Positions 29,327-44,153 of a stretch of 64,000 bases of DNA are shown here, one piece after another. The notes beneath the pieces were generated by a model. It was not told the origin of the DNA. It ran no database searches and saw nothing but the letters and a program-made list of their open reading frames with translations. Each line of letters opens with the position of its first letter. Within the stretch, counting starts at the first letter, position 1. The stretch comes from Paragemmobacter amnigenus (GTDB lineage: Bacteria; Pseudomonadota; Alphaproteobacteria; Rhodobacterales; Rhodobacteraceae): assembly GCF_009908265.2 (NCBI RefSeq), contig NZ_JAAATX020000001.1:62001-126000 (forward strand), given 5' to 3'. The translations under genes and the position numbers were made by a program.

Positions 29327-29327
29327 G

Positions 29328-30398
29328 TCAGCCAGCCTCTTTGGGCAGAAGCCGAAGGGCATCGGTCGGCAGTGTGACTTCGATCACGTCGTCTTCGGCG
29401 CAGGGCGCACCGCCGCGCAGGGCGTTCTGGACACGCGCCACCATCCTTGCCCCATCCGCCAGCAACAGGTGCACATGCGTGTCCGTACCGAAATAGACCA
29501 GCCGTTCGACCCTTGCCGCGAGGGTCAGCCCACCGCCGCGCGCGGAGCCGAGGACCACATGCTCGGGCCGGACCATGAGCGTAACCGGCCCGTCGGGATG
29601 TGAGACGGGCAGTGGACCCGCTGCCTGCGAAAGCACGAGCCTTCCCCGAGCGCAGGTGGCGTCGAGAAAGTTGCTCTCGCCGATGAAGCTTGCGACAAAG
29701 CGGTTGGCGGGTTGGTCGTACAGTTCGCGCGGGGTGGCGATCTGCTGGATGCGTCCGCCGTTCATCACCGCGATGCGGTCGGACATGGTCAGCGCCTCTT
29801 CCTGGTCATGCGTAACGAAGATGAAGGTGAGGCCGGTTTCCTGCTGCAGCCGTTTCAGTTCGACCTGCATGTCCTTGCGCAGCTTCATGTCCAGGGCGGA
29901 CAGCGGCTCGTCCAGAAGCAGGATACGCGGCTTCGGCGCCAGCGCGCGTGCCAATGCCACCCGCTGCTGCTGACCGCCCGACAACTCGCCGCTCTTGCGG
30001 TGTGCCAGATGACCCAGCTGCACCAGCGCCAGCATCCGTTCGACCGTCGCGGCAATCTCTGAACGCGGCCGCCCCTGCGCTCCCAGCGCAAAGCCCACGT
30101 TCTCGGCGACGGTCATGTGCGGAAACAGGGCGTAGTTCTGGAAGACCGTGTTCACCGGCCGCTTGTTGGGAGGCAACCGGGCGATGTCACGACCGTCCAG
30201 CACAAGCTGGCCACCGCTGGGCGGCTCGAACCCCGCAATCAGGCGCAGAAGCGTGGTCTTGCCACAGCCTGACGGTCCAAGAAGCGTGAAGAACTCCCCT
30301 TCCGCAATCGGGAACGTGACTTCGCTCAAGGCGGTCACGGACGTCGCACCCCTCCCGAAGCTCTTCGTCAGGTTTCGAATCTCGAGCATCAGACCCAT
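29328..30398 (-). CDS. Spermidine/putrescine-type ABC transporter ATP-binding subunit
   Basis: A 356-residue ATPase and first gene of the leftward transporter-amidase operon. Walker [11 protein letters not shown]-loop [12 protein letters not shown], signature [15 protein letters not shown] and Walker [13 protein letters not shown] are complete, and a TOBE domain follows from about residue 245. Two starts are possible, 30398 and 30389 (MLEIRNL); the purine-rich GCGGGATGGG serves both. The gene diverges from the TetR gene across 85 nt that contain palindromes, so TetR probably controls it. Confidence 0.92.
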
Positions 30399-30419
30399 CC
30401 CGCTGGATGGTCTAGGCGT

Positions 30420-30451
30420 ATTGACAAAATAACTTTAGTCAATCAAAAGTT
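30420..30451. promoter_or_regulatory. Palindromes in the divergent TetR/transporter promoter
   Basis: ATTGAC (30420-30425) is mirrored by GTCAAT (30438-30443), and AACTTT (30431-30436) by AAAGTT (30446-30451). The two overlapping inverted repeats lie in an AT-rich 60-bp stretch, unlike the GC-rich surroundings. TTGACA at 30421 could be a -35 element, but I do not see a good -10. The likely occupant is the adjacent TetR protein. Confidence 0.55.
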
Positions 30452-30483
30452 TTATCGACATAAGTTTTTGGGATGTAGGGCCG

Positions 30484-31164
30484 ATGGAACATCTGGCAGA
30501 CAGTGCCAAGCCTGGCCTGCGGGATCGCAAAAAGGCACGGCGCCGGGACGAGATCATCGCCGCCGCCCGAGACCTGTTCACCCTGCAAGGCATCGACGCC
30601 ACGACCATGGCCGAGATCGCGGCGGCGGCAGAAGTGTCGACACCGACCGTCTTCAACTACTTCGGCTCGAAGGACGGCATCCTGATCGCGATGATTTCGG
30701 AAGGGACCAGAGAGGCGCGCGAGCGGGACAAGGGCCTGCATTGGCGCGAGGGGGCCGATCTGGTCACCCTCATTGTCGATCTGTTCCTGCGCGTCTCGTC
30801 GCGGACCTTGGATGTCGCGGGCAAACGCGTGTGGCGCTACGCCGAAGCAGCCGCCATCCGGCATCCGGAAACCGGTCTGTCGAAGGAATACCGAAATGTC
30901 TCCAACGCGTTGCATGTCTTCCTCACCGACTTTCTGGCAGAGCTTGACCTGCAGACCCGGGCGGCAGGCGACTGCCCGCCCGCTTTCCTTGCCGAAGTGC
31001 TGATCGAACGCTGGATGCCCTGTTTCATCCACCTGATCACCTCGGAAGAGCAGACTTTGACCCAACACAGGGCCGTGCTTCAGGCACAATTTGAACCGCT
31101 GATCGACCTCATCTTCACCGACGCCTGCGTGGAACGCCCGCACCGCAAGGGTGCAACGGCATGA
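30484..31164 (+). CDS. TetR-family transcriptional regulator of the accessory block
   Basis: A 226-residue regulator. The HTH spans about residues 15-62 (RDEIIAAARDLFTLQGIDATTMAEIAAAAEVSTPTVFNYFGSKDGIL), the TetR consensus. The long C-terminal helical domain will hold the effector pocket; WMPCFIHLITSEEQTL is unusual in carrying a lone Cys. It starts the rightward operon, overlapping the start region of the following DUF3237 gene, and diverges from the transporter operon. It probably senses the imported compound or a breakdown product. Confidence 0.9.
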   Translation: MEHLADSAKPGLRDRKKARRRDEIIAAARDLFTLQGIDATTMAEIAAAAEVSTPTVFNYFGSKDGILIAMISEGTREARERDKGLHWREGADLVTLIVDLFLRVSSRTLDVAGKRVWRYAEAAAIRHPETGLSKEYRNVSNALHVFLTDFLAELDLQTRAAGDCPPAFLAEVLIERWMPCFIHLITSEEQTLTQHRAVLQAQFEPLIDLIFTDACVERPHRKGATA

Positions 31165-31187
31165 CGGCAGAACGGAAAGGATCGGAC

Positions 31188-31673
31188 ATGCCATCTGACG
31201 GTCTGGCCGCGGACATCACCTCTCTGGGTGCCCGGACTTCGCCGGGTCAGCCAAGGGTCCGGCGCGCCTGCGTGATCCGCGCGGATCTGGGGCAGGCCCT
31301 GGAATTCTCCGCCGCCAGCGGCAGGGTCCGCGCCATGTTCCCGATTGCCGGCGGCGAGGCGCGCGGTATCGGCTGGTCGGCACGCATCCTGCCCGGCGGG
31401 GCGGATTTCGCCGTCCGTCTGCCCGACGGCACCTACGAGATCGAGGCGCGCTATTGTCTGGAACTTGAGGACGGCACACCTGTGATGGTGACCAATGCCG
31501 GACGCATGTTCCCGCAACCCGACGGCAGCTATGCCGGCCGGACGCGCGCCATGCTCGAGGTTCCGGACGGGCCGCACCGGACACTGGGGGACGCCGTCTA
31601 CTTGGGCACGGCCTTGGCCGAGCCGGGTGACGAAAACCATGTCTACATCGAACTGTGGGAGGCGCCCGTCTGA
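31188..31673 (+). CDS. DUF3237-family protein, first copy
   Basis: A 161-residue protein with the core strand pattern of DUF3237 barrels: FPIAGGEARGIGWSARILPGGADFAVRLPDGTYEIEARYCLELEDGTPVMVTNAGRM. The key ILPGGADF block matches the second copy at 32939. DUF3237 proteins are small beta-barrels of unknown or isomerase/hydrolase-like role, often found in aromatic degradation clusters. AAGGA lies 6 nt before this ATG. An alternative ATG at 31161 overlaps the TetR stop (ATGA) and would add nine residues. The FAD monooxygenase gene follows within 18 nt. Confidence 0.78.
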   Translation: MPSDGLAADITSLGARTSPGQPRVRRACVIRADLGQALEFSAASGRVRAMFPIAGGEARGIGWSARILPGGADFAVRLPDGTYEIEARYCLELEDGTPVMVTNAGRMFPQPDGSYAGRTRAMLEVPDGPHRTLGDAVYLGTALAEPGDENHVYIELWEAPV

Positions 31674-31691
31674 GGCGGGCGGGAAAGACCA

Positions 31692-32942
31692 ATGATTCTG
31701 ATTGCCGGGGCTGGCATTGCCGGACTGACCTTGGGGCTGACCCTGCATCAACTTGGCCTGCCCTTCCGCATCCTTGAACGCGTCGCGGGCCTTCGCCCCT
31801 TGGGCGTCGGGATAAACATCCAGCCCAACGCCGTGCGCGAGCTTTTCGACCTCGGTCTGGAGGCAGAGCTTGACCGGATCGGCATCCGGACCCGGCAATA
31901 TGGATTTTACACCAAGACCGGCCTGCCTATCTGGGTCGAACCGCGCGGGCTAGCTGCGGGCTATGCCTGGCCGCAATTCTCGCTGCATCGCGGCCAGTTC
32001 CAGATGCTGCTCCTGAAGGTGCTTCAGGACCGCGCGGGCGATGTGGTCGAGACGGGCGCCGGTATCGCCGGAGTCGAAACCGGTGACCGCGGCGCAACCC
32101 TGATCCTGACGGACGGTCGGCGGGTGTCGGGCGATGTGGCGATTGCCGCCGACGGCATCCACTCGGCGATCCGCAAGCAGATGGTGCCGGATGAAGGAGA
32201 GCCGATCTGGAACGGCGCCATCATGTGGCGCGGTACCTCGCCGGGGCGGCATTTCCTTGGCGGGAATGCGATGTTCCTTGCCGGACATGATACCCAGCGC
32301 TTCGTAGCCTATCCGCTGACGCCCGAAGACCCCGCGACCGGCATGGCAACGATCAACTGGATTGCCGAGATGCGGGTGGATCCAGCCCGCGCGATGGCCA
32401 AGGGCGACTGGAACCGTCCGGCCGACAAGGCCGATTTCCTTCCGGCTTTCGAGGGCTGGGATTTCGGCTGGGTCGATTGCCCCGGTCTGATCCGCGCCTC
32501 CGGCCTGGTTTACGAATATCCCATGGTAGACCGCGAGCCGCTGCCCTCATGGACCGACGGCTGCGTCACCCTGATGGGCGATGCGGCGCATGCGACCTAT
32601 CCCGTGGGCTCGAACGGCGCGACTCAGGCGATCATCGACGCCCGCAAGCTCGGCGCGGCCATCCGCGATCATGGCCCGAACCGCACGGCCCTTCTTGCCT
32701 ACGAGGCCGAGATGCGCCCCCGCGCCGAAGGCATCCTGCGCGCCAATCGCGGCAAGGGACCGGATGCGGTGATGCAGATGGTCGAGGACCTGTGCGGCGG
32801 CGTCTTTGACGACCTTGAACCGATCCTGCCGCGCGAAAAGCTGGCGGCCCATGCCGAACACTACAAGCGCCTGTCGGGCTTCTCGGTCGAGGTGCTGAAC
32901 GCCCAGCCGCCGATCATCGGGGCCATGGAGCGGGTGGCATGA
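31692..32942 (+). CDS. FAD-dependent monooxygenase, PhzS/salicylate hydroxylase-like
   Basis: A 416-residue group A flavin monooxygenase. GAGIAG at 6-11 is the dinucleotide fold start, IAADGIHSAIRKQ carries the DG motif that contacts FAD and NAD(P)H, and LMGDAAHATYPVGSNGATQAIIDA is the GD motif. The ordering and length resemble PhzS (phenazine-1-carboxylate monooxygenase) and related ring hydroxylases. It likely hydroxylates an aromatic or N-heterocyclic acid. The stop overlaps the second DUF3237 gene by 4 nt. Its genetic link to the amidase-importer operon suggests one pathway. Confidence 0.9.
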   Translation: MILIAGAGIAGLTLGLTLHQLGLPFRILERVAGLRPLGVGINIQPNAVRELFDLGLEAELDRIGIRTRQYGFYTKTGLPIWVEPRGLAAGYAWPQFSLHRGQFQMLLLKVLQDRAGDVVETGAGIAGVETGDRGATLILTDGRRVSGDVAIAADGIHSAIRKQMVPDEGEPIWNGAIMWRGTSPGRHFLGGNAMFLAGHDTQRFVAYPLTPEDPATGMATINWIAEMRVDPARAMAKGDWNRPADKADFLPAFEGWDFGWVDCPGLIRASGLVYEYPMVDREPLPSWTDGCVTLMGDAAHATYPVGSNGATQAIIDARKLGAAIRDHGPNRTALLAYEAEMRPRAEGILRANRGKGPDAVMQMVEDLCGGVFDDLEPILPREKLAAHAEHYKRLSGFSVEVLNAQPPIIGAMERVA

Positions 32943-33379
32943 CCCTCTTTGCCGAATTCCGCCTGCAGGTCGGTCGCCCCGTCGCTCTGGGCAATGACGG
33001 CTTTGGCGAGGCGCGGATCGTGCCCATCTTGGGCGGAACGGTCAGCGGCCCCGGCCTGACGGGCACGATCCTGCCCGGCGGGGCCGACGAACAGCGCATC
33101 CGCGCCGATGGCCTGACCCGCATCCATGCACGCTATGTCATCCGCGCCGAAGACGGGTGTCTCATTCGGGTCGACAGCCAGGGCCTGCGTCACGCCCCTC
33201 CCGAGGTGATGGCTGCCATGATGCGCGGGGAACGCGTCGACCCGACCCAGGTCTACTTCCGCACGGTGATCCGGTTCGAAACTGCTACCGAAGTGCACGA
33301 CCACCTGAACCGAAGCCTTTTCCTGTCCGAGGGACAGCGTGAACCCGATGCCGTCGTTCTGCGGTTGACTCGCCTTTGA
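32939..33379 (+). CDS. DUF3237-family protein, second copy
   Basis: A 146-residue protein, full family length. It begins FAEFRLQVGRPVALG, continues ILGGTVSGPGLTGTILPGGADEQ and ARYVIRAEDG, and ends with LRHAPPEVMAAMMRGERVDP and YFRTVIRFET, a near-consensus DUF3237 sequence. It overlaps the monooxygenase stop by 4 nt. Two divergent DUF3237 genes around one monooxygenase suggest sequential or heteromeric use. It is the last gene of the rightward operon. Confidence 0.88.
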   Translation: MTLFAEFRLQVGRPVALGNDGFGEARIVPILGGTVSGPGLTGTILPGGADEQRIRADGLTRIHARYVIRAEDGCLIRVDSQGLRHAPPEVMAAMMRGERVDPTQVYFRTVIRFETATEVHDHLNRSLFLSEGQREPDAVVLRLTRL

Positions 33380-33921
33380 ACTCCCAAGCGTTTTCTCAGG
33401 GTTGAACATCGGATTCTGCACAGCGTCTTCCTGAAATCTTTTCTCCAGAGGAAACGAGCCACGCTGAGTACCGCGCCCGACAAAAACGTCTTTCGAGAGG
33501 GAAAAGCGATCTGTAGCTTCGGTCCCTGCTAGCGATCGCATAACCAATATTCGCGCTTTCTCGCCCGTACTCGCTCGTTGATTTGGGCGTGCTGAGACAG
33601 CGCTTCCTTTCCCGCCGTTTCGTAATCATCGACGGACCTCATGGACCGAAAGTGACTACGTTGCGCTATCTGAGAGACGTGCCATGCGTCCGGAAGCTTT
33701 CATCAAAAAATCAGACAGACTTTGGTGAAACTTCGATTTATCCAATATCCTGCGACCGTCTAATTTAATATTATAATCAAATACTTAAATTCGCACCCCA
33801 GCTTTTCAGCCAATAACCTTCCCGAAAATGCGCGCATGATGCGCTATGGCAGGCGCTTCAAGCCTTTTGCCTGATCCGTTCGGTATGGGGCAGCCAGCCT
33901 GCAGCCACCGCCGCCGAACCT
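33380..33921. other. Gene-free region with an AT-rich patch at the right edge of the accessory block
   Basis: About 540 nt without a credible gene. Short open frames exist (for example 33583-33768) but have no recognisable product and poor codon bias. Composition changes sharply at about 33700-33795, with runs such as TAATTTAATATTATAATC that occur nowhere else in the window. At 33793 GCACCCCAGC resembles the tRNA-Gln end GCGCCCCAGC (9 of 10), which is too short to call an attachment site. I see no terminator with a T tail for the DUF3237 gene. Confidence 0.6.
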
Positions 33922-34560
33922 TTACCAGCGCAGGAAGCGATGTCCCGCCACGGCGCCGATTCCGCCGACAAGGCAGATCGCCCCCCCGTACCACGCCACG
34001 AAGAAAAGCGGTGAATCCTCGGTGCAATGCAGGGCATAACCCGACGCGACCGCCGCCGCCGTCGCAAGGCCAAGCAGTGCACCGGTCACGACGGGCCGCG
34101 TCGGTGCGGACCGGCGGAACAGGACGATGCCTGCGGCAAGGGGCAGCGCCGACAGCAACACGATGGATCCCAGACAGGCCAGCGCCGTCTGTCCCGCCAT
34201 TTCGGCAAAGGAAAGCCCGTCCGCACCGGCCAGACGGTACAGCACCATCGCGCCAGCCACGGCACCGGGAAGGGCCAGCAGCCACAGCATGACCCGCCCC
34301 TCCGGCCTTGCCGACCTCAGGGCAAGCCAGATGGCCGACAGCGACAACAGCGCAGGCAGGATCGTCTTGGCCTGCACCGCCAGTTCGGCCCAGGCTGCGC
34401 CCAGATCGGGGCGGATCCCGAAGATCGCAAGGTACAGGCCAAGACCCGCCAGCATGACACAAAGCATCGCAGCCAGCGTCCGGCCGGGCCTGAACGGCTC
34501 CGGCAAGGGCGCCGCGGCAAGCGCGCCGATCAGGTCTTCCGTGCGTCGCCTGTCATTCAT
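33922..34560 (-). CDS. NrsF-type anti-sigma factor (DUF1109)
   Basis: A 212-residue inner-membrane protein with six predicted helices, the size and topology of NrsF. Cys129 (ALACLGS) and Cys179 (LHCTEDSPLFFVAWYG) fall where the pair of periplasmic cysteines implicated in metal sensing lies in Caulobacter NrsF; I recall those positions from the literature and could not check them here. Family role: holding an ECF sigma factor at the membrane until metal or oxidative stress. The start overlaps the sigma-factor stop by 4 nt. It is the last gene of the bufferin-type operon. Confidence 0.88.
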   Translation of the reverse strand: MNDRRRTEDLIGALAAAPLPEPFRPGRTLAAMLCVMLAGLGLYLAIFGIRPDLGAAWAELAVQAKTILPALLSLSAIWLALRSARPEGRVMLWLLALPGAVAGAMVLYRLAGADGLSFAEMAGQTALACLGSIVLLSALPLAAGIVLFRRSAPTRPVVTGALLGLATAAAVASGYALHCTEDSPLFFVAWYGGAICLVGGIGAVAGHRFLRW

Positions 34561-35189
34561 TTCATCATCCTTTCGGCCAAGCCCGACAGCCGCTGCATCG
34601 CGCGGTGCAGCGCGACACGTGCGGCACCTGCCGTCATCCCCACCGTCTCACCCGCCTCACCGGCGGTCTTTCCATCCAGCGCCACCGCCCTGACCAGCAT
34701 GGCAGACCGCGTGTCGATCAGTCCCAGCATCACCTCGGCGTCCCGCGCCGAAAGCGGCGCTGCGGCATCCTCCCCGGGCAGGATCTCGGCGAAATCCTCG
34801 ATCGGCAGGGTCACCGCCGCCCCGCGCTTGCGGAAAGCATCCACCACCTTGTAGCGGGCCAGCGCATAAAGCCACGGCCTGACCGGCGCATCCGGCCGCC
34901 ATGTCCGGCGCTTCAGATGGACGGCCAGCAGAACCTCCTGCAGGATATCCTCGTGCTGGTCGGGGGGCAGCCCGTCGCCCCTGCGCCGGATCACGGCGCG
35001 CAGCGTGGGCGTGACGGCATGCAGGAAACGGGCAAAGGCCGCGCCATCCCCGTCATTGGCGCGGGCCAGCAGAACCTCCCAGACCTCGTCCTGCCGCAAC
35101 CGCTCCTCCACCCCTGACGGCCCAACCGTAACAGGGGCAGAGAGGGTGGCACAGTCACGCCTCGGTGAAAGGGCGAAGGCCGCCGTCAT
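34557..35189 (-). CDS. ECF RNA polymerase sigma factor (SigF-like, paired with NrsF)
   Basis: A 210-residue ECF sigma factor. Region 2 is visible as DILQEVLLAVHLKRRTWRPDAPVRPWLYALARYKVVDAFRKR (about 80-122) and region 4 as LVRAVALDGKTAGEAGETVGMTAGAARVALHRAMQRL (about 165-201). The ATG at 35189 overlaps the thioredoxin stop by 4 nt. The first 25 residues are not conserved-looking, so a later start is possible. Its partner is the NrsF gene that follows. In Caulobacter the SigF-NrsF pair controls bufferin-type operons, which fits the upstream genes here. It likely activates its own operon through the promoter at 38767-38795. Confidence 0.88.
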   Translation of the reverse strand: MTAAFALSPRRDCATLSAPVTVGPSGVEERLRQDEVWEVLLARANDGDGAAFARFLHAVTPTLRAVIRRRGDGLPPDQHEDILQEVLLAVHLKRRTWRPDAPVRPWLYALARYKVVDAFRKRGAAVTLPIEDFAEILPGEDAAAPLSARDAEVMLGLIDTRSAMLVRAVALDGKTAGEAGETVGMTAGAARVALHRAMQRLSGLAERMMK

Positions 35190-35593
35190 CCCGCCGCCGC
35201 CAGCGCCGCATCGAACAGCGCCTTGATCTCGGCCCTGCCGGTTCCCGCAACGATGCGCCCGATCTCCTCCCGCCCTTTCAGCGCGACAAGCGTCGACCGG
35301 CGCGGGATCTTCAGTGCACGGGACAACTCGCCCTCGCCATGCTGGTCCCAGTCCACGACGATGAAACGGATGCTCCGGCCATAAGCGGGGGTCTCGGCCA
35401 TAAGCCCCGCGATCACCCGTTCCTGCGCCGCGCAGGTGCTGCACCAGCTCGCCCAGAAATCGAGGATCACGACCTCCCCCGCATCCATCGCCGCCTCGGC
35501 AAGTCCGGGCGTGTAGAAGGTCCGCCCGTCCGCATGCAACGGGCCGGCAAGGATCGACATGGCAGAAGACAAAAGCAGGGTTCGACGGTTCAC
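35186..35593 (-). CDS. Periplasmic thioredoxin-like protein (TlpA/DsbE type)
   Basis: A 135-residue thioredoxin-fold protein with an N-terminal export signal (NRRTLLLSSAMSILAGPLHA). The redox motif is WASWCSTCAAQE, CxxC at about residues 50-53, in the strand-helix context ILDFWASWC. The start is GTG with AAGGAG 7 nt upstream. It follows ccdA by 14 nt; CcdA proteins pass electrons to just such thioredoxins. Probable job: keeping periplasmic cysteines reduced, possibly those of the operon's metallopeptide. The pairing with the sigma factor gene by overlap shows shared expression. Confidence 0.87.
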   Translation of the reverse strand: MNRRTLLLSSAMSILAGPLHADGRTFYTPGLAEAAMDAGEVVILDFWASWCSTCAAQERVIAGLMAETPAYGRSIRFIVVDWDQHGEGELSRALKIPRRSTLVALKGREEIGRIVAGTGRAEIKALFDAALAAAG

Positions 35594-35607
35594 GGGATGT
35601 CTCCTTC

Positions 35608-36318
35608 TCAGATGCTGACGGACAGATCGACAAGCCACGCAGGCAGGATTTGCAGGGCAGCGGCGTCAAGGATGTGGTTCAGGCCAAGAAACAGCGCGGC
35701 CCCCACGGCGATGAAGACCCAGCCCATCACGGGCCGCGCGCGGGCCGACAGCGCCACCGCGCGGCCCATGTTCCGCCGCAGCCAGCCCCGCAGGCCATAG
35801 GCGGCGGACAGGAACAGCGTTGCCACACCGGCAGCGAAAGCCGCCATCACGGCGGCTGCGTGACCGATACCCTCTCCCGTACTGGCCAGCGCGATGGCCG
35901 CCCCCAGCGTGGGGCCGATGCAGGGGCTCCAGACCGCACCCAGCAGCGCGCCCCCTGCAAACTCGGCCCCGATCCCGCGCGGCGTCGCGGCGATGCGCGC
36001 ATCCGCCGCCGCCGCGATCCCCGCCGAGGCGAGGGAAAACCGCCGCGCCAGCACGGGCAGGACCATGACCAGCCCGAAGCCGACCATGACCAGCGCCGCG
36101 ATCCGCGTGACGTCCTCGGGATAGATGCCCAAGGCCGGACCGATGGCCGCCACGCCCGTTCCCACCGCCACGAAGGACAGCCCCATCCCCGCCGCAAGGG
36201 CCAGCGGCGCCCGCGGATCGGTCTGCAGGCTGCCTGCCAGAACGATGGGCAGCACCGGCAGGACGCAGGGATTGATCAGCGTCAGAAGTCCTGCGAGGTA
36301 GCCAAGGATCAGGTCCAT
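35608..36318 (-). CDS. CcdA/DsbD-type transmembrane electron carrier
   Basis: A 236-residue membrane protein with six helices. The redox cysteines are in TM1 (INPCVLPVLP) and TM4 (WSPCIGPTLG), the exact CcdA arrangement. CcdA moves electrons from cytoplasmic thioredoxin to periplasmic acceptors, for cytochrome c maturation or thiol repair. Its place between DoxX and a periplasmic thioredoxin in a bufferin-type operon points to a dedicated role here rather than general cytochrome c assembly. It starts 1 nt after the DoxX stop. Confidence 0.9.
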   Translation of the reverse strand: MDLILGYLAGLLTLINPCVLPVLPIVLAGSLQTDPRAPLALAAGMGLSFVAVGTGVAAIGPALGIYPEDVTRIAALVMVGFGLVMVLPVLARRFSLASAGIAAAADARIAATPRGIGAEFAGGALLGAVWSPCIGPTLGAAIALASTGEGIGHAAAVMAAFAAGVATLFLSAAYGLRGWLRRNMGRAVALSARARPVMGWVFIAVGAALFLGLNHILDAAALQILPAWLVDLSVSI

Positions 36319-36759
36319 CTAAGCCCTCGCCCCGCGCTCCAGCCCGATCAGATGGTCAAGGGACCACCGCCCCGCCCCCCGCGCCACCACCGCCAGCAGC
36401 ATCGCGGCCCAAAGACCATGCGTCATCCAGGCATCGGGATAGACGAAGATCTGGATCACCGCCGTCATCCCCAGAAGGCCAAGCGCCGACAGTCGCGCGC
36501 ACAGGCCAAGCACCAGCAGGACGGGCAGCAGATGCTCTGACACCGTCGCCATCACCGCCGCCATTTCAGGCGGGATCAGCGGCAGGGCATATTCATGCTC
36601 GAACAGGAACCATGTTGAGTCCTTGATCGAGACCCCCTCCACCTTCGTCCGTCCCGATTGCCAGAACACCAAGGCCGGAAAGACGCGCAGCAAAAGGGCC
36701 ACCGGCGCATCGGGGATACGGGCCAGCGTCAGGTTCAGTTTGTGAATCATGTGGATCAT
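36319..36759 (-). CDS. DoxX-family membrane protein
   Basis: A 146-residue protein with four predicted helices: [22 protein letters not shown], then [26 protein letters not shown] and [12 protein letters not shown]. This is the DoxX pattern seen in bufferin and MNIO operons, where the protein is thought to work with quinone or thiol redox. Two ATGs (36759 and 36750) are possible; GAGGGAGA precedes both. It sits 6 nt after the DUF2063 gene. Confidence 0.88.
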
Positions 36760-36765
36760 TCTCCC

Positions 36766-37521
36766 TCACGCCCCCGCATCGACAATCGCCCCGGCCCGCA
36801 TCAGCGAGACGAGCAGCGCCTGCGGTTCGTGCCCCGCGTCAACCTTGCGTGCCTTCCCCGCCGCAACCGCCAGAGGGTCACCCGCCAGAACGGATCGCAC
36901 CATGACGCCATCCCCGCGCCCCACCCGCCAGACCGGCACGCCAAAGGCGGCATCGCGCAGGATCAGCGCGATTTCGGGTCCATGGGCCAAGGGCACATCC
37001 TCCCCGCCCGGCTGGTTGCGCGCCCAGATCGACACGGCAGGATGGGCAAGCCACAGGAGCGTGACGGACGGATGCAGCCGCAACCGGACGCGTTCGGGAT
37101 CGGCCCCCGCAAGACGCGCCGGATCGACGGCCCGCGCATCCGCCGCATGGAACGCCCGCCCCCGCGCGAACTCGATCCGCGCCACATCGCCCAGATAGGG
37201 ATAGGCCGCCAAGGGCGCGAACCCCTCCACAAACGCCGCAAAGCCTTCGCCCCATTCCGCAAGGACGGGAGAGCACGGGCGCTCCATCTTGGCATAAAGC
37301 AGCGCGAGCGGGGCAAAGAACGCCTCGCCCACCACCCTGCGGATCACGGGAAAACGGGTCGCCAGCGCGCCGGTCAGGCCGACGGCCACGTTGTTGCGGT
37401 AGACGCTGAACCGCCGCCCGATCTCTGCGGGGTCGCGGGCGGTCAGACCGGCGGGAACCGGCCCTCCGCTGAGCGCCTCGCCGAAGGCCGCGACGAACTC
37501 AGGATGCGTGTGCAAGGCCAT
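36766..37521 (-). CDS. DUF2063 partner protein of the MNIO enzyme (BufC-like)
   Basis: A 251-residue protein. The DUF2063 N-terminal domain is clear in the pattern [62 protein letters not shown] (about 35-97). Such proteins bind the precursor peptide and help the DUF692 enzyme. The C-terminal half contains a typical [17 protein letters not shown] stretch. The ATG at 37521 overlaps the DUF692 gene by 23 nt, so the enzyme and partner are translationally coupled. Confidence 0.9.
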
Positions 37522-38356
37522 GCCCCCCGCCCGCCAGTATCTCCCCCGCCCGCGCGGCCTCGGCCGCCAGAACCGGCCAGTCGGGCAGGTCATTGTCCCA
37601 CTCCACCAGCGTGGGCAAAGCCCCCGCCCTGTCGATCACCGCGGCAAACAGCTCCCAGACCGGATCGGCCACCGCCGCCCCGTGGCTGTCGATCAGCAAC
37701 GGGCCTAAGGGCAATTCCTCCGCGTCATGCCCGCCAAGATGGATTTCCCCCACCAGATGCAGCGGACAGGCCGCCAGCCATGCGCGGGGATCATCGCCAT
37801 GATTGGTGCAGGACACGAAGACATTGTTCACATCCAGAAGCAGCCCGCACCCCGTCCGCCGCGCCACCTCGCCCAGAAACTCGGTCTCGGGGATCGTCGA
37901 TTGCGCGAAACGCAGATAGGTCGCGGGATTTTCCAGCAGGATCCGCCGACCCAGCACAGCCTGCACCTGATCGACATGGTCACAGACCAGCCGCAGCGTT
38001 TCCTCGGTATAGGGCAAGGGCAGCAGGTCGTTCAGATACTCCGCCCCGTGACTGGACCATGCCAGATGTTCGGAAAAGCTTTCGGGCTGATACCGGTCGC
38101 ACAGCCGCTTCACGCGGGAAAGATGGTCCCCGTCCAACCCCCGCGCCCCGCCTATGGACAGCCCCACCCCGTGGATCGACAGCGCATGGTCCGCCCGTAT
38201 CGCCCCGAGCATCGCATGGGGCAGTCCGCCCGCACCCATGTAATTCTCGGCATGCACCTCGAAAAAACCGATCCCCGCCGCCCCCTCGCGGATCGCGGCG
38301 AAATGTTCCGGCTTGAAGCCCACTCCGGGCAGAGGGGGAAGGAAGGCTGGCAGCAT
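37499..38356 (-). CDS. DUF692 multinuclear non-haem iron oxygenase (MNIO, BufB-like)
   Basis: A 285-residue TIM-barrel MNIO. Metal-site blocks are readable in order: [73 protein letters not shown] and [10 protein letters not shown]. This family (MbnB, TglH, ChrH, BufB) oxidises cysteines in precursor peptides. The precursor is most likely the DUF2282 protein encoded directly upstream. I chose the ATG at 38356 ([15 protein letters not shown]), the common family start. Confidence 0.93.
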
Positions 38357-38410
38357 GGCGCATCCACTCGGATGGAAACGGGCGCGCGGAACATCCGCGC
38401 GCCCCAAGGA

Positions 38411-38719
38411 TCAGGCCTCGGGAACATCCCGCTCCAGCGCCTCGAGCGATCCGCTCCGCGCCATGCCATCCTCGGCCGCCGGCAGTTCCATGGTCAGGCA
38501 GGTGCCCGCCGGAACCAGCTTCCATGCGTTGCCCTGATAATCGACCTTCGACGTGCCGGCACAGGTCGTGCCCGGACCGGCAGCGCAGTCATTCTGCCCC
38601 GCCAGCGCCACGCCAAAGCACTTTTCCATCTCCTCGGCCATCACCGGCGTCACGGCCATCGCGCCAAGCGCGCAAGCCAGCGAGGCACCAAAGACGAAAC
38701 GGGACGTCATCGCAGTCAT
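38411..38719 (-). CDS. DUF2282 bufferin-type precursor peptide (BufA-like)
   Basis: A 102-residue secreted protein. A Sec signal (cleavage about VMA-EE at residue 28) precedes a core with four cysteines: C34 in EKCFGVA, C45 in [11 protein letters not shown]53 in [10 protein letters not shown] and C74 in PAGTC. This is the DUF2282 signature of bufferins, RiPPs whose cysteines are oxidised by an MNIO enzyme and that bind copper. An acidic tail of about 25 residues without Cys follows. GGGAG precedes the ATG at 38719. It is the first gene of the eight-gene operon and the only precursor in the window. Confidence 0.92.
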
Positions 38720-38766
38720 GTCTATCTCCCTGTCATACCCGAAAGGCCATCTGCCCTTCCCCAGAC

Positions 38767-38795
38767 AGTTCGCAGGCAGGTGCCGCAGCATTACA
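38767..38795 (-). promoter_or_regulatory. Candidate ECF (SigF-type) promoter of the bufferin operon
   Basis: On the minus strand TGTAATG (-35), a 16-nt spacer, then CGAACT (-10). The form GTAA-N16/17-CGAA is the general ECF promoter shape and close to the TGTAACC/CGAA pattern I recall for Caulobacter SigF. It lies about 48 nt upstream of the precursor start and would make the operon auto-regulated by its own sigma factor. Confidence 0.65.
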
Positions 38796-38875
38796 GCAGT
38801 CGCGGTTTCGTGATGGACGCGCTCGCCAGCAGGTCCGGCCGTCGCCGTCTCGGAACCCTGCCGCAGCCGTCCGCG

Positions 38876-39658
38876 CTATGCCCGCACCAGCTGCGTGCCC
38901 AGCCAGACCAGCGCGATCAGCACAGGCTGGTGCAGCAGATAGATAGCCAGCGAATGCCGCCCCGGCCAGGCCAGACGCCGCGCCAGCGGGCCGCCCTGCC
39001 CCAGCCGGTCCCAAAGCCCCGCCCGCGCCGCCAGTTTCGCCGTCCCCATCCCCGCCAGCAGCGCGCCGGTCCACGGAAAGACGGGCACGAAATCCATCGT
39101 CCATGGCAATTGCGTGCCCAGCCCGATCCAGACCAGCCCGCGCCCGTTCATTGCGTCAAACCCGAACTTCCGGTCCACCCAGACCACCCCCAGTGCCAGC
39201 ACCACCAAGGCCACCCCCGGCAGGCGGATCAGCGCGATCCCCAGCAGCGAGGCCAGCACGATGGAATGCAGGATGCCGAAAAAGATGAAGGCCTCGGGAA
39301 TCGCCAGCCGCGTCGCCACCGTCACGGCAAGGGCGGCCAGCCCCACCCGCAGCAACCTGCGCGCGAAGGCGCTCCAGCGCACTCCCGCGCCATGAGCCAG
39401 AACCAGACTGACCCCCGCCAGAAACAGGAAACTTCCCGCCACAACCCGCGCCAGAACGGCCCAGCCCCCCGTCACCGTCGTGCCCGCGGGCAGATGGCCG
39501 AAAAGTTCGAGATCGAATGTGAAGTGGAACAAGACCATACCGGCCAGCGCGACCGTCCGCGCCACATCCACCGCCACCAGCCGCCCCGCCGCATCCGCCC
39601 TGCCCAAACCCGCCTCCTGCCTGCGAAACCGTGCGATCGGGCGCAGTTTTGCGGGCAA
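38876..39658 (-). CDS. DUF1624 (heparan-alpha-glucosaminide acetyltransferase-like) membrane protein
   Basis: A 260-residue membrane protein with about seven helices. The N-terminal RLVAVDVARTVALAGMVLFHFTFDLELFG is the DUF1624/HGSNAT start with its conserved Asp and His. The C-terminal WPGRHSLAIYLLHQPVLIALVWL is the typical end of this acyltransferase-like family. Bacterial members are of unknown role, perhaps acylating cell-surface sugars. It lies upstream of the bufferin promoter on the same strand and is not in that operon. It diverges from the B12-binding gene. Confidence 0.85.
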   Translation of the reverse strand: MPAKLRPIARFRRQEAGLGRADAAGRLVAVDVARTVALAGMVLFHFTFDLELFGHLPAGTTVTGGWAVLARVVAGSFLFLAGVSLVLAHGAGVRWSAFARRLLRVGLAALAVTVATRLAIPEAFIFFGILHSIVLASLLGIALIRLPGVALVVLALGVVWVDRKFGFDAMNGRGLVWIGLGTQLPWTMDFVPVFPWTGALLAGMGTAKLAARAGLWDRLGQGGPLARRLAWPGRHSLAIYLLHQPVLIALVWLGTQLVRA

Positions 39659-39765
39659 AAACGCCGCTTCACAAGTGCAACACGCTGCCCGGGGCCGCGC
39701 AACGCGACCTTTCGCGGATTGACTTCCCCCCTGCGCTGTGCGCCGATGGCCGCAGGGAACCGAGG

Positions 39766-40605
39766 GTGACCGTCAACCAACCCGTACATGCTTCGATGTC
39801 TGCCGAATTTGACGACCAGAGTACAAGTGCCACGCTGTCGGAGCCCCAATCCGCCAGACACCGACGTTTTGACCAGCGCGACCACGTCACGGCGCTGGCC
39901 TCGGAAGTGCTGCATCAGGTCGCCCGCCGCGCCGTCGAGATCCGCAAGGCCCGCGACCGCGAGGCCATCCTTGCCGCCGCCGTCGCCCTGACCTCCGGCA
40001 CAGAGGAAGACGCCGCGCTCTCGCTCGAATCGCTGGACGATCCGCTGCACGAGCTGGACTGGTTCCTTGCCGAACGGCTGGGTCCCATCGCCAAACAGAT
40101 CGGCAACCTCTGGACCGCCGACAAGGTCTCGTTCCTCGAGGCGACGGTGGGCGCCTCGCGCATCTATTCCTATCTGCGTTACCGCCGCCGCCCGCCGCGT
40201 CTGCCGGAAAGCGGAGTGCGGAAATCGGCCACCTTCGCGCTCGTCCCCGGCGACATGCACACGCTGGGCATATCGGCCGCCACCGATGTCTTCCGCGCCC
40301 GTGGCTGGGACATCACCCTGCTCATCGGCCACAGCCATGACGAGCTTTCAGCCCATTTCGAAACCTCGCAGGACATGCTCTACGGCTTCTCCGCAGGCTC
40401 CTCCCACTCGCTCGAGGCGCTGGGGCGGCTGGTCGTGGCACTCACCGTCGCGCGGCCTGCCGCGCAGGTCATGGTCAGCGGCCAGATCACCACCGATCCT
40501 GCTGCCGTTCTGGCCCTGCCCGGCATCGACCATTGCGAGACGGACCTCGACTCCGCCTGCCGCTGGTTCGAAGACCACACCCGCGCCGCCAAGACCCCCG
40601 CCTGA
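39766..40605 (+). CDS. Cobalamin (B12)-binding domain protein, PpaA/AerR-like regulator
   Basis: A 279-residue protein. The C-terminal half is a Rossmann B12-binding domain with the DxHxxG lower-ligand motif in PGDMHTLGISAATDVFRARGWDI, preceded by a helical cap (ERLGPIAKQIGNLWTADKVSFLEATVGASRIYSYL). This layout and length match PpaA/AerR, light- or redox-linked regulators of photosynthesis genes in Rhodobacter. No HTH is present, as in those proteins. I chose the GTG at 39766 because AGGGA precedes it; an ATG at 39796 lacks a ribosome site. No photosynthesis gene cluster is in the window. Confidence 0.82.
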   Translation: MTVNQPVHASMSAEFDDQSTSATLSEPQSARHRRFDQRDHVTALASEVLHQVARRAVEIRKARDREAILAAAVALTSGTEEDAALSLESLDDPLHELDWFLAERLGPIAKQIGNLWTADKVSFLEATVGASRIYSYLRYRRRPPRLPESGVRKSATFALVPGDMHTLGISAATDVFRARGWDITLLIGHSHDELSAHFETSQDMLYGFSAGSSHSLEALGRLVVALTVARPAAQVMVSGQITTDPAAVLALPGIDHCETDLDSACRWFEDHTRAAKTPA

Positions 40606-40790
40606 CGGCGGATTTCCGCTCTATGTCAGGGGTTTAGACCGCTAAACCGATGCATCGGGCAGCGCGCCTATGCCTTGCGTCGGATCGACAGACAGACCTG
40701 CCCGCGCCAGTCTCTTCCCACGCACCCGCTCCCCCGGGTGCACGTCCCCGAGTCCGGCGCGGGGGGTCAACCGGCCCCCCGCGTCCGCCC

Positions 40791-41801
40791 TCAGCCCTCG
40801 GCCAGTTGGCGGTTCGACAGGCGGCGCGGCGATACGCCATAGCGCTGGCGGAAGGCCTTGGTGAAGGTGTTGGTCGCGTTGAACCCGCAGCCATAGGCCA
40901 CTTCCGCCACCGGCATGTCCGTCTCGGTCAGCAAGGCCCGCGCCCGCTCCAGCCGCAGCCCGTTCAGGTACTGCTTGGGCGACATGCCGACATAGCGCTG
41001 GAACAGCCGCTCCACCTGCCGCCGCGACACGCCCATCTTCTCGGCCAGCGCCTGGATATCGACGCCCGCCTCCAGATTCTCCTCGAAACTGCGGATCACC
41101 TCGACCAGCACCGGATTGCGGATACCAAGGGTCGAGGACAGCGACATCCGCTGCCGCAGGTCGGCAGGCCGCTGCTGGCCGTGCAGGCACATCTTCAGCA
41201 CCGCATCCGACAGCCGGTCGCCATAGTTCTGCGCCACGATCTCGATGAACAGGTCGGTCGCCGCCGCGCCCCCCGCACAGGTCAGGATACGCCCGTCGAT
41301 GCAGTAAAGCTGCTCCAGCGGCCGCAGATGGCCGAAGGTCTCGACGAAAGGCGGCAGGTTCTCCCAATGCAGGGTGAAGCTCCGCCCCTCCAGTATCCCC
41401 GCCTTGGCCAGCGCATAGGCCCCAGTGCACATGCCGCCCACGGTCCGCCCCTGCCGCCACTGCTGGCGCACCCAGTCCGCCACGCGGCGCGAGGTCGACT
41501 TCTCCGGCTCCACGCCCGCGCAGACGAACACCATCGACTTGGGCTTTGTATCCCCCAGCGGCCCGTCCACCTGCACCTTCAACCCGTTGGAACAGCCCAC
41601 CGCCTCGCCCGTCTCGGACAGCACGTCCCATTCGAACAGCGCCTGCCCCGCCAGCTGGTTGGCGATTCTCAACGGCTCGATGGCCGAAGAGAACGCGATG
41701 AGCGAGAAGTTGGGCAACAGCACAAAGGTCATCCGGACCGGTTCGCCCACGCTCGGCACCGGCACATGCGCCACACCCTTGGGAACAAAATTCGCGGTCA
41801 T
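40791..41801 (-). CDS. GlxA/AraC-family regulator with DJ-1-like domain
   Basis: A 336-residue protein. The N-terminal domain (about 20-190) is DJ-1/PfpI-like (MTFVLLPNFSLIAFSSAIEPLRIAN, then VGGMCTGAYALAKAGIL and the end AGGAAATDLFIEIVAQNYG). The C-terminal AraC domain holds two HTH motifs (VDIQALAEKMGVSRRQVERLFQRYVG and MPVAEVAYGCGFNATNTFTKAFRQRYG). Such regulators (GbdR, SouR and relatives) control betaine, sarcosine and carnitine catabolism, fitting the nearby creatinase. The ATG at 41801 has GGAG 6 nt upstream; the gene begins 2 nt after the LysR coding end. Confidence 0.9.
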   Translation of the reverse strand: MTANFVPKGVAHVPVPSVGEPVRMTFVLLPNFSLIAFSSAIEPLRIANQLAGQALFEWDVLSETGEAVGCSNGLKVQVDGPLGDTKPKSMVFVCAGVEPEKSTSRRVADWVRQQWRQGRTVGGMCTGAYALAKAGILEGRSFTLHWENLPPFVETFGHLRPLEQLYCIDGRILTCAGGAAATDLFIEIVAQNYGDRLSDAVLKMCLHGQQRPADLRQRMSLSSTLGIRNPVLVEVIRSFEENLEAGVDIQALAEKMGVSRRQVERLFQRYVGMSPKQYLNGLRLERARALLTETDMPVAEVAYGCGFNATNTFTKAFRQRYGVSPRRLSNRQLAEG

Positions 41802-41802
41802 C

Positions 41803-42720
41803 TCACGCTCCATGTCCAGTCGCCGCCTCGGGGGTCGCACCATCGCGCGACGCAAAGGCCCAGTCGCGGAAAGCCCGCGCATCCCGTGCCCGCGCCGGAT
41901 CGTCCATTTCTGCCGTCAGCAGATGATAGCCGTATTCCTCCAGTACCGACACATCCGACAATTGCACCAGCCGCCCCGCATCCAGATCGGGCCGGATCAT
42001 CGCGGCGGGACACAGCGCCACCCCCTGCCCTGCCAGCGCCGCCGCGCGCAGCAGGTTGAAATCCTCGAACACCGCCGCCCCCGTCTGCACGGGCATCGGC
42101 ACGCCCATCCGGCGAAACCACGCGGCCCATCCGCTCTGGTCCGTGTCATGCAACAGGCCCAGCGCCAGATATTCCGACGGGCGCACCGGACGCCCGCCGC
42201 GCAGGATGGTCGGGCTGCACACCGGCACGCTTTCCCCGCCAAGGAAGGGCTCCGATTCCACCGACAGGAAATCCGGCCGGCCCTTCGCAAAGACGAAGGC
42301 CAGATGGACATCCCGGAAATCTATATCCCTACCGTGCATGGCATAAACCACCCTTATCTCCACCTCCGGATGCGCCGCGCGAAACCCCGCAAGCCGCGGG
42401 ATCAGCCAGCACACCGCCACCGACGGGATCGCCGCGATGACCAGCGGCCCCGCCCGTTGCCCCACCTTCGCCCGCGTGCAGGCCGCCTCCATCTCGGCCA
42501 GCGACAGGCTGACCGCCCGCGCCAGCTCCGCCCCGTGCGGCAACAGCTTCGGCCTTCCGCCCTCGCGGTCGAACAGCGGCCCGCCCAACCAGTCCTCCAG
42601 ATGCCGGATCTGGTGGCTGACCGCCGACTGCGTGACGAAAAGTAAATCCGCAGCCGCCTTGAACGAACCCGTCTTTGCAACTGCCTCGAAGGCACGCAAG
42701 GCATTTAGGGGAATCTGCAT
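41803..42720 (-). CDS. LysR-family regulator, GcvA-like
   Basis: A 305-residue LysR protein. The winged HTH is at about 5-65 (LNALRAFEAVAKTGSFKAAADLLFVTQSAVSHQIRHLEDWLGGPLFDRE), and the effector domain begins GPLVIAAIPSVAVCWLIPRL, in the GcvA style. The ATG at 42720 is the usual family start. It is divergent from creatinase over 119 nt with a palindrome, and is co-directional with the GlxA regulator, which follows at once. It is the best candidate for direct control of creatinase. Confidence 0.9.
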   Translation of the reverse strand: MQIPLNALRAFEAVAKTGSFKAAADLLFVTQSAVSHQIRHLEDWLGGPLFDREGGRPKLLPHGAELARAVSLSLAEMEAACTRAKVGQRAGPLVIAAIPSVAVCWLIPRLAGFRAAHPEVEIRVVYAMHGRDIDFRDVHLAFVFAKGRPDFLSVESEPFLGGESVPVCSPTILRGGRPVRPSEYLALGLLHDTDQSGWAAWFRRMGVPMPVQTGAAVFEDFNLLRAAALAGQGVALCPAAMIRPDLDAGRLVQLSDVSVLEEYGYHLLTAEMDDPARARDARAFRDWAFASRDGATPEAATGHGA

Positions 42721-42741
42721 GAACCACCGCCCAAGGCCAAA

Positions 42742-42770
42742 TGAGATTTTCTCACCCATTGCATGAGAAA
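42742..42770. promoter_or_regulatory. Candidate LysR operator between regulator and creatinase genes
   Basis: TGAGA-TTT-TCTCA (42742-42754) is a perfect short palindrome, and a further ATGAGAAA half-site lies at 42763-42770. A palindromic site plus an offset half-site in a divergent promoter is the usual LysR layout. Confidence 0.55.
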
Positions 42771-42839
42771 CCGTCTTTTGACAACCGCCCCCCGATTAAC
42801 CGAGTTTGCCCCCAACCAATCAGCAGAGGGGTCCATCAC

Positions 42840-44072
42840 ATGGAACGCGAAAGACTTCAGAACTACGTGGGCAACGGCGAACCCGTCACCCCCACCTTCT
42901 CGGCCGCCGAGATGCAGCGCCGCCTCGACGCAATCCGCAAGGTGATGGCGGACAAGGGCATCGACGCCGCGCTCTTCACCTCCTACCACTGCATCAACTA
43001 CTACTCGGACTTCCTGTTCTGCTACTTCGGCCGCCGCTACGGCCTCTTGGTGGACCACAACATCTCCACCTCCATCTCGGCCGGCATCGACGGCGGCCAG
43101 CCGTGGCGCCGGACCTTCGGTGGCAAGAACGTCACCTACACCGACTGGCAGAAGGACAACTACTTCCACGCCATCCGCCAGCTCACCGGCGGCGTGAAGC
43201 GTCTGGGGATCGAATTCGACCACATCACCATCGACACGCTGAACCTGCTCAAGGCCGAATTCCCGAACATGGAATTCGTCGACATCGCCGGCCCCTCGAT
43301 GCGCCTGCGGATGATCAAGTCGGCCGAGGAAATCGCCCATATCGAAAAGATGACCCGCATCGCCGACATCGGCGGCGCCGCCTGCGTCGAAGCCACCCAG
43401 GTGGGCGTGCCGGAGCATGAGGTCGCGCTGCACTCCACCGCGACGATGGTGCGCGAAATCGCCAAGGTCTGGCCGCATGGCGAACTGCTCGACACCTGGA
43501 CCTGGTTCCAGTCGGGCATCAACACCGACGGCGCGCACAACCCCGTCACATCGCGCAAGATCGAACGCGGCGACATCCTGTCGCTCAACTGCTTCCCGAT
43601 GGTCGCGGGCTACTACGTCGCGCTGGAGCGGACGCTCTTTGCCGAAACCGCCACCGACGAACACATCCGCCTGTGGGAATTCAACTGCAAGGTCCACGAT
43701 CGCGGCAAGGAACTGCTGGTGCCGGGCAACAAGTGCAGCGACATCGCCAAGGAACTGAACGCGATGTATGCCGAAGCGAACCTGCTGCAGTACCGCAGCT
43801 TCGGCTACGGCCACTCCTTCGGCGTGCTGTGCCACTACTACGGCCGCGAAGCGGGCCTCGAACTGCGCGAGGATTGCGACACCGTGCTGGAGCCGGGCAT
43901 GGTCATCTCGATGGAACCGATGATCACCATCCCGAACCACCTGCCGGGCGCCGGTGGCTACCGCGAGCATGACATCCTCGTCATCACCGACGACAACAAC
44001 AAGGGCAACCGCAACATCACGGGCTTCCCCTATGGCCCCGAGCATCTGATCGTCGGCAAGAAAGCCGCCTGA
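42840..44072 (+). CDS. Creatinase (creatine amidinohydrolase)
   Basis: A 410-residue pita-bread-fold hydrolase that splits creatine into sarcosine and urea. Long stretches match characterised creatinases: ALFTSYHCINYYSDFLFCYFGRRYGL, DGGQPWRRTFGGKNVTYTDWQ, DTWTWFQSGINTDGAHNPVT (catalytic His), SLNCFPMVAGYYVALERTLF, YGHSFGVLCHYYGREAGLELRED and GYREHDILVI. This distinguishes it from Xaa-Pro peptidases. AGAGGGG precedes the ATG. Sarcosine oxidase and urease genes are not in the window. A terminator follows 25 nt after the stop. Confidence 0.93.
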   Translation: MERERLQNYVGNGEPVTPTFSAAEMQRRLDAIRKVMADKGIDAALFTSYHCINYYSDFLFCYFGRRYGLLVDHNISTSISAGIDGGQPWRRTFGGKNVTYTDWQKDNYFHAIRQLTGGVKRLGIEFDHITIDTLNLLKAEFPNMEFVDIAGPSMRLRMIKSAEEIAHIEKMTRIADIGGAACVEATQVGVPEHEVALHSTATMVREIAKVWPHGELLDTWTWFQSGINTDGAHNPVTSRKIERGDILSLNCFPMVAGYYVALERTLFAETATDEHIRLWEFNCKVHDRGKELLVPGNKCSDIAKELNAMYAEANLLQYRSFGYGHSFGVLCHYYGREAGLELREDCDTVLEPGMVISMEPMITIPNHLPGAGGYREHDILVITDDNNKGNRNITGFPYGPEHLIVGKKAA

Positions 44073-44096
44073 TCCGCCCTTTGCAGAACATGGAAC

Positions 44097-44122
44097 GGGG
44101 CCGCCGCAAGGTGGCCCCTTTT
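44097..44122 (+). terminator. Terminator after creatinase
   Basis: GGGGCCGCC / GGTGGCCCC (9 bp with one G-U pair), GCAA-type loop, then TTTTCC. Confidence 0.85.
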
Positions 44123-44153
44123 CCTTTCCGCCGCGCTGCCCATATCCTGTGGC

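Follow-up and report, generated by a model that had tools for sequence, protein, structure and literature searches.

The operon treated here lies in a 64,000-nt stretch of the Paragemmobacter amnigenus genome (contig NZ_JAAATX020000001.1; the whole stretch is called the window), where eight genes, bufA, bufB, bufC, doxX, ccdA, trx, ecf and nrsF, follow one another in clean reading frames on the - strand (33922-38719). They encode a bufferin precursor with its maturation proteins and DoxX, a CcdA-thioredoxin redox pair, and an extracytoplasmic function (ECF) sigma factor with an NrsF-type anti-sigma factor. Together they probably constitute a self-contained, mobile and autoregulated operon for envelope metal/thiol stress, of the ECF16 (SigF-NrsF) type. 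The immediate neighborhood suggests that the redox pair works for bufferin, and the original prediction saw in it an electron path dedicated to the peptide; the wider co-occurrence points instead to the sigma/anti-sigma switch, so that a tempting inference is corrected. Judging from the comparison of genomes, the pair appears to accompany the NrsF switch and, within a cassette, to have become joined to bufferin. Bufferin genes accompanied by sigma/NrsF genes have been published before; what appears to be new here is the presence of ccdA-trx inside a bufferin operon.

The operon, its promoter and its switch

The genes are tightly packed, with gaps of 54, -23, 6, 0, 14, -4 and -4 nt in order from bufA to nrsF, so the overlaps and small gaps (-23 to +54 nt) that had been predicted are confirmed; Pfam together with a CcdA profile bears out the predicted gene identities. 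The first gene, bufA (38411-38719), encodes a bufferin-1 precursor of 102 aa (DUF2282, 6.5e-26), the only DUF2282 protein in the whole genome. Of its five cysteines, Cys16 falls within the presumed signal peptide (assigned by inspection), and the remaining four (34, 45, 53 and 74) are the core cysteines to which the original prediction drew attention; all four are kept in 93/93 homologues. The next genes are bufB (37499-38356), for a 285-aa multinuclear non-heme iron-dependent oxidative enzyme (MNIO) of the DUF692 type (MbnB_TglH_ChrH, 2e-102); bufC (36766-37521), for the DUF2063 partner protein of 251 aa (5.7e-19); and doxX (36319-36759; 146 aa, 1.4e-17). A DUF2282 precursor with four conserved cysteines and a signal peptide, adjoined by genes for an MNIO, a DUF2063 protein and DoxX, is the composition of a bufferin-1 cluster, and the same four are the core genes described in PMC12452194, in agreement with the original prediction. 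By analogy, the product is predicted to be a thiooxazole-modified, copper-binding BufA.

The redox pair begins with ccdA (35608-36318), the gene for a short DsbD-beta/CcdA electron transporter of 236 aa. Seven of the eight genes are supported directly by Pfam, and the match of this one to DsbD_TM (2.1e-5, 24.4 bits) stays under the cut-off of 27.1; despite this, its identity is secured because a profile of 12 relatives matches the solved CcdA structures 5vkv and 2n4x (8.4e-23 and 1.3e-10). Cys18 and Cys133, one catalytic cysteine for each half of the DsbD_TM fold, are invariant in the 12 rows, the pattern of CcdA/DsbD-beta proteins. Since three other proteins of the genome pass the DsbD_TM cut-off, the operon CcdA is an extra copy. 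The adjacent trx (35186-35593, GTG start) encodes a presumably exported thioredoxin (Trx) of 135 aa (Pfam Thioredoxin, 1.6e-6). Its active site is WCSTC, the cysteine pair of which is present in 42/42 homologues, and its putative export signal, with an arginine pair, was recognized by inspection. (A scan of genome contigs with Trx picked up a generic thioredoxin motif, with a best identity of 36% over the longer matches.)

The last two genes form the switch. The product of ecf (34557-35189; 210 aa, Sigma70_r2, 3.5e-8) groups in a tree with NrsF-linked, ECF16-like sigma factors, and nrsF (33922-34560) encodes a six-helix anti-sigma factor of 212 aa (NrsF, 8.4e-40) in which Cys129 is kept in 35/35 homologues and Cys179 in 28/34. 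An NrsF-family anti-sigma factor with two conserved cysteines is characteristic of ECF16/SigF-NrsF systems; taken with the promoter, it suggests that the sigma factor belongs to the ECF16 group. This promoter, TGTAAT-N17-CGAA (38769-38795, - strand, 76 bp upstream of bufA), is one mismatch off the consensus TGTAAC-N16/17-CGAA; the published forms are (T/C)GTAAC-N17-CGAA (PMC8315932) and tGTAACc-N16-CGAA (PMC3420878). Within the window alone, the two one-mismatch matches are at chance level (at least two in 20/100 shuffles). Across genomes, the motif (at most one mismatch, N17) stands at -76/-77 in 8/8 operons of the window's type, and it lies upstream of bufA in 30/90 loci, related by ancestry, versus 2.0% of shuffles. 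In the 4.14-Mb genome the strict form TGTAAY-N17-CGAA has a single match, the one before bufA, which is no surplus in itself because a control pattern occurs four times. Given this one site, the sigma factor may serve its own operon alone, looser sites being possible. Further targets with an N16 spacer were sought and discarded, as four matches were found versus six for the control pattern and none was clearly ahead of a gene. A sigma-70 site was not found at the locus, and terminator-like sites there are no commoner than in shuffles. The anatomy suggests that one ECF16-type promoter ahead of bufA drives all eight genes.

A shared cassette

The predicted combination, in which a bufferin-type operon includes a redox pair, a sigma factor and an anti-sigma factor, recurs elsewhere. 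In all, eight operons of this type were found, in the window, at L060, L062 and L067, in three genus mates (L218, L219 and L220) and on a Paracoccus plasmid (L191); as the eight loci keep the same gene order, the arrangement is more than chance. (L067 is truncated by a contig end, and at L191 doxX and ccdA are annotated as a single open reading frame. A true DoxX-CcdA fusion in this organism, Paracoccus liaowanqingii, was considered and rejected: the joined frame retains the CcdA start and DoxX similarity ends just before it, so that an indel is likelier.) The window CcdA and its P. liaowanqingii counterpart show 65% similarity.

The cassette is uncommon among bufferin loci. DUF2282 occurs in 211/295 genomes of the window's family, and 80 buf loci from the top of the E-value list of these positive genomes, some skipped and thus a non-random set, were fetched and joined to the window. 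Only 4 of these 81 loci (the window, L060, L062 and L067) have ccdA-trx, each with the window's gene order, and 77 have no ccdA-trx within the fetched stretch, several of the stretches stopping at contig ends. At 15 loci, among them that of genus mate L053, ecf-nrsF is divergent from bufA and ccdA-trx is missing; at 62, no ecf-nrsF was found in the fetched stretch. The gene-order comparison called for by the original prediction gave a divided answer: the order itself recurs in eight loci, but the pair accompanies few of the buf loci examined in the family.

In the CcdA tree (from which L225 and L251 were left out as short), the eight cassette proteins form one clade with a support of 98 in the Shimodaira-Hasegawa-like approximate likelihood ratio test (SH-aLRT). 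In the ECF+NrsF tree, calculated without L067 (part of its ecf-nrsF is lost at the contig end), the seven cassette members likewise form one clade (99), inside a lineage that elsewhere is divergent to buf. In the BufB tree, the eight cassettes need three changes; the Paracoccus row is separate, and among the cassette rows stands L225, whose buf locus has a broken ccdA. When the window is aligned by blastn with the other cassette loci, the common block covers ~4.9 kb (33922-38814) and the flanks differ. Matches to L060, L062, L218, L219 and L220 start at 33921-33954 and end at 38813-38814, the match to Paracoccus spans 33906-38735, and that to L067 is limited on one side by the contig end. Beyond the block (E<=1e-8), a single common stretch was seen, 406 nt between L060 and L218 (67%), some of the compared flanks being short (153 nt for L060 and 567 nt on one side for L219). 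The picture is different for divergent ecf-buf loci: those of six genus mates (L053, L284-L288) have long stretches of 6-17 kb in common. In addition, genus mate L218 is closer to L060 (89.0%) and L062 (89.5%), which belong to other genera, than to the window (81.3%). Taken together, the one CcdA clade, the shared 4.9-kb block and the unshared flanks argue that the cassette probably has a single origin and moves as a unit. No tRNA genes are present in 28000-46000 of the window. (Near the operon lie a probable gene of the creatinase type, at 42741-44072, and one for a probable AraC regulator resembling GlxA, at 40791-41882.)

The company of the ccdA-trx pair

Outside the cassettes, the pair is found in several settings. 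A CcdA homologue (E<=1e-25) is present in 145/394 family genomes, and a Trx match accompanies it in 38 of 40 fetched loci. Three of the 40 are cassettes, one is the buf locus with a broken ccdA, three lie near buf genes (L222, L223 and L242), and four are divergent from ecf-nrsF without buf (L221, L234, L235 and L236); of the others, 8 are in a cbb3 cluster between FixP- and FixG-type genes, 11 are beside EamA and 10 are elsewhere. The ECF16 motif (at most one mismatch) precedes ccdA in 8/44 family loci versus 1.1% of shuffles, and these include all four divergent loci.

Among 289 genomes of the class, NrsF occurs in 56, the CcdA subfamily (E<=1e-25) in 32 and DUF2282 in 100, and it is NrsF that CcdA tracks. 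NrsF is present in 20/32 genomes with CcdA versus 36/257 without (odds ratio 10.2, p=9.7e-9), in 15/24 versus 41/265 when only short CcdA proteins are counted (p=1.2e-6), and in 16/22 versus 23/~131 when counted by family (the family total being estimated; p ~5e-7). For DUF2282, the corresponding counts are 16/32 versus 84/257 (p=0.07), or 13/24 versus 87/265 for short proteins only (p=0.04), and in these 289 genomes the association is not significant among either NrsF-positive (p=0.26) or NrsF-negative ones (p=0.19). The association between CcdA and NrsF is seen both inside (p=2.7e-7) and outside (p=0.016) the DUF2282 genomes. A role of CcdA-Trx as a general partner of bufferin is rejected on this pattern together with the 4/81 buf loci examined.

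Individual loci illustrate the same company. Stretches were fetched around 20 of the CcdA places in the class (31 without that of the window), and the motif (at most one mismatch) lies within 250 bp ahead of the pair in 5/20 versus 1.2% of tiles. At L258, the order is trx-ccdA-ecf-nrsF with a perfect ECF16 motif in front and no buf; at L260, the pair is divergent from ecf-nrsF, again without buf; and on a Methylobacterium plasmid (L197), NrsF is divergent from trx-ccdA with no buf. At L259, which has no close ECF16 motif, buf, ecf-nrsF and trx-ccdA adjoin one another. At L261-L263, a DsbD_TM+Redoxin+Thioredoxin_10 protein is encoded near ecf-nrsF; in one of these (L263:4151-9433, genome G485), two DUF2282 genes come after the DsbD-like gene, ecf-nrsF is divergent from this group, and no MNIO match was found in the fetched stretch.

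Several further loci deserve mention in their own right. Eight loci of the window's genus (L224, L226-L232) have a homologous pair that is flanked by a FixP/ccoP-like gene on one side and a FixG/ccoG-like gene on the other. As CcoG is a copper reductase, the pair may have a second link to copper. Within the genus, mutual exclusion between pairs of the cbb3 type and those of the buf/ECF type is not significant (p=0.15). A SoxV-SoxW origin was set aside on the contexts identified (cbb3, EamA, ECF-NrsF and a heterogeneous remainder), with no search by a sox profile. Genome G299 contains a buf operon with an ECF16 promoter and a broken ccdA (L225:8772-9506), behind which no trx, ecf or nrsF was found, and, elsewhere, an intact ecf-nrsF/ccdA-trx locus (L221). 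On a Burkholderia glumae plasmid (L198:6920-8909), near arsenosugar genes, trx-ccdA is followed by an ECF sigma gene and a zf-HC2 anti-sigma gene that replaces NrsF. Finally, in G300 (L293 and L294), several perfect ECF16 motifs lie near NrsF genes and near operons encoding a protein that, judged by eye, resembles a thiamine-diphosphate enzyme.

Precedents and possible roles of the redox pair

Buf1 clusters have been described to contain sigma and NrsF genes beside the core of precursor, MNIO, DUF2063 and DoxX genes, further conserved genes occurring 'in extremely low proportions' (PMC12452194); the main text of that paper makes no mention of thioredoxin, CcdA, TlpA or DsbD. In the open-access literature, none of the matches listed links a ccdA-thioredoxin pair to bufferin or to DUF692/DUF2282, and the CcdA of PMC12257519 is unrelated to that of the window. 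The closest relatives are CC3252-CC3257 of Caulobacter and the gig operon of Cupriavidus, in which DUF2282, MNIO, DUF2063 and DoxX genes are likewise under ECF sigma/NrsF control (PMC12452194, PMC3511200, PMC10304878). In Caulobacter, however, sigF-nrsF is a separate operon, whereas here the sigma pair closes a single operon of eight genes, and ccdA-trx, present here, goes unmentioned in the passages on the Caulobacter and Cupriavidus operons. SigF-NrsF controls CC3254-3257, and both NrsF cysteines matter (PMC3511200). Copper induces the SigF regulon, which includes the bufferin genes, and a sigF::Tn5 strain is copper-sensitive and grows poorly with copper (PMC8224329). Deletion of gig alone has no effect (PMC10304878), and in S. 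meliloti, for which RpoE7 and a DUF692 operon are described, H2O2, Cd and chromate gave no induction in the study concerned (PMC6180224).

For the redox pair, the nearest precedent is the ECF16 regulon of Bradyrhizobium japonicum, which, like the operon here, combines a CcdA/DsbD-beta protein, a periplasmic thioredoxin and a two-cysteine anti-sigma factor. The genes bll1027 and bll1026, described as encoding a DsbD-beta core and a periplasmic thioredoxin, are among the strongest targets: their expression falls 15.4 and 20.1 fold without EcfF-OsrA and rises 89.5 and 92.4 fold without OsrA (PMC3420878). Unlike the pair here, they lie outside the operon of the sigma gene, and DUF2282 is unmentioned in the main text. 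The ScsB-ScsC system also resembles the window pair, in that it delivers electrons across the membrane to a thioredoxin-fold protein of the periplasm and is linked to copper tolerance (PMC8900818). ScsB is nevertheless one protein of three domains (alpha, beta, gamma) with an isomerase partner, ScsC; here there are a separate 236-aa CcdA and a small 135-aa thioredoxin, no alpha domain, and an adjoining metallopeptide.

Within this framework, periplasmic metal or oxidant would act via NrsF Cys129 and Cys179 and free the sigma factor, as shown in the Caulobacter and Bradyrhizobium relatives. By its position, the promoter before bufA would then be fired, yielding more bufferin, maturation proteins, DoxX, CcdA, Trx and sigma factor itself. 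As in Caulobacter, BufB and BufC would convert the BufA core cysteines to thiooxazoles in the cytoplasm, and the exported BufA would bind copper. CcdA may move electrons over the inner membrane to the exported Trx, which may in turn reduce periplasmic thiols oxidized by copper or oxidants. The redox pair would thus act in parallel with bufferin within the ECF16 response, not as a device for bufferin maturation, with bufferin perhaps one client of several. Most likely, a single switch controls both the chelation of copper and the repair of thiols.

Several observations weigh against this assignment. The pair is held between doxX and the sigma gene in all eight cassettes, as a role dedicated to bufferin would also predict. 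Most class pairs are apart from the switch, NrsF being within 5 kb of CcdA in 7/32 genomes, three of which (G420, G485 and G509) encode a long DsbD-like protein; the DsbD-like genes beside NrsF at L261-L263 have no close ECF16 motif. On plasmids, NrsF is present in 2/8 stretches around the pair (L191 and L197). In the class query profile, 6 of the 12 rows are NrsF-adjacent, and the genomes are related. The likeness of bll1027/bll1026 to the window pair is one of description. In Caulobacter, H2O2, paraquat and diamide raise the expression of SigF genes less than 2-fold, and mutation of sigF adds no sensitivity to chromate or cadmium (PMC3511200), which disfavors plain thiol oxidation as the signal.

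A bolder and rather doubtful idea is that the mobile cassette brings its own electron line, which re-reduces the exported bufferin (its thiooxazole thiols or outer disulfide), the NrsF sensor cysteines, or both. If this were true, copper loading and signaling would be redox-gated, and the metallopeptide would be discharged and then reused. The part concerning bufferin, in which Trx would reduce disulfides of the BufA thiooxazole thiols or outer cysteines after export and so permit copper reloading, is unlikely. It would account for the fixed place of the pair in the cassettes, for the ccdA-trx or DsbD-like genes within ~5 kb of buf in other arrangements (L222, L223, L242, L259 and L263), and for the report that thiooxazole peptides aggregated, with disulfides suspected and two alkylations observed (PMC13097082). 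However, it leaves aside the 77/81 buf loci without the pair, the preference of CcdA for NrsF across the class and the pairs beside ECF-NrsF without buf, and the regulation of the Bradyrhizobium pair also speaks against a dedicated path; moreover, the first and last cysteines of mature Buf1 are reportedly disulfide-bonded (PMC12452194), so that reduction could do harm. The earlier suggestion that the cysteines are kept reduced before modification fits poorly with an exported thioredoxin, since BufA is assumed to be exported only after its modification (PMC12452194).

The part concerning the sensor, in which Trx would re-reduce or isomerize the NrsF cysteines and reset the switch after stress, is quite improbable. 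The conservation of these cysteines, their importance in relatives (PMC3511200, PMC3420878) and the tracking of NrsF by the pair are consistent with it, but diamide fails to induce the SigF genes in Caulobacter, OsrA Cys129 is predicted within the membrane (PMC3420878), the passages on relatives describe no Cys129-Cys179 disulfide, and 36/56 NrsF genomes lack this CcdA. Electrons might instead go to a periplasmic methionine sulfoxide reductase (Msr) encoded elsewhere, as speculated for bll1027/bll1026 (PMC3420878); MsrPQ belongs to the SigF regulon of Caulobacter (PMC8224329) and to the ECF16 regulon of Brucella (PMC8315932). This, too, is a minority possibility here, since the cassette has no msr gene (the rest of the genome was not searched for msr) and the strict promoter motif lies only before bufA. 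It is likewise improbable that ccdA-trx is co-regulated cargo with no role tied to copper or bufferin. Homologous pairs do occur in other contexts (the cbb3, EamA and other loci above), and G299 retains its buf operon despite a broken ccdA; yet the cassette CcdA proteins are strongly conserved (75-92% identical), ccdA-trx is intact in 8/8 cassettes, and G299 has its second, intact pair.

An ECF16-type operon in which bufferin, a thiol-reducing line and their own switch are combined, behind a strict promoter motif that is unique in the genome, would be a clean system for asking whether ECF16 responses need chelation and thiol repair jointly, and it is also suited to asking whether bufferin is recycled.

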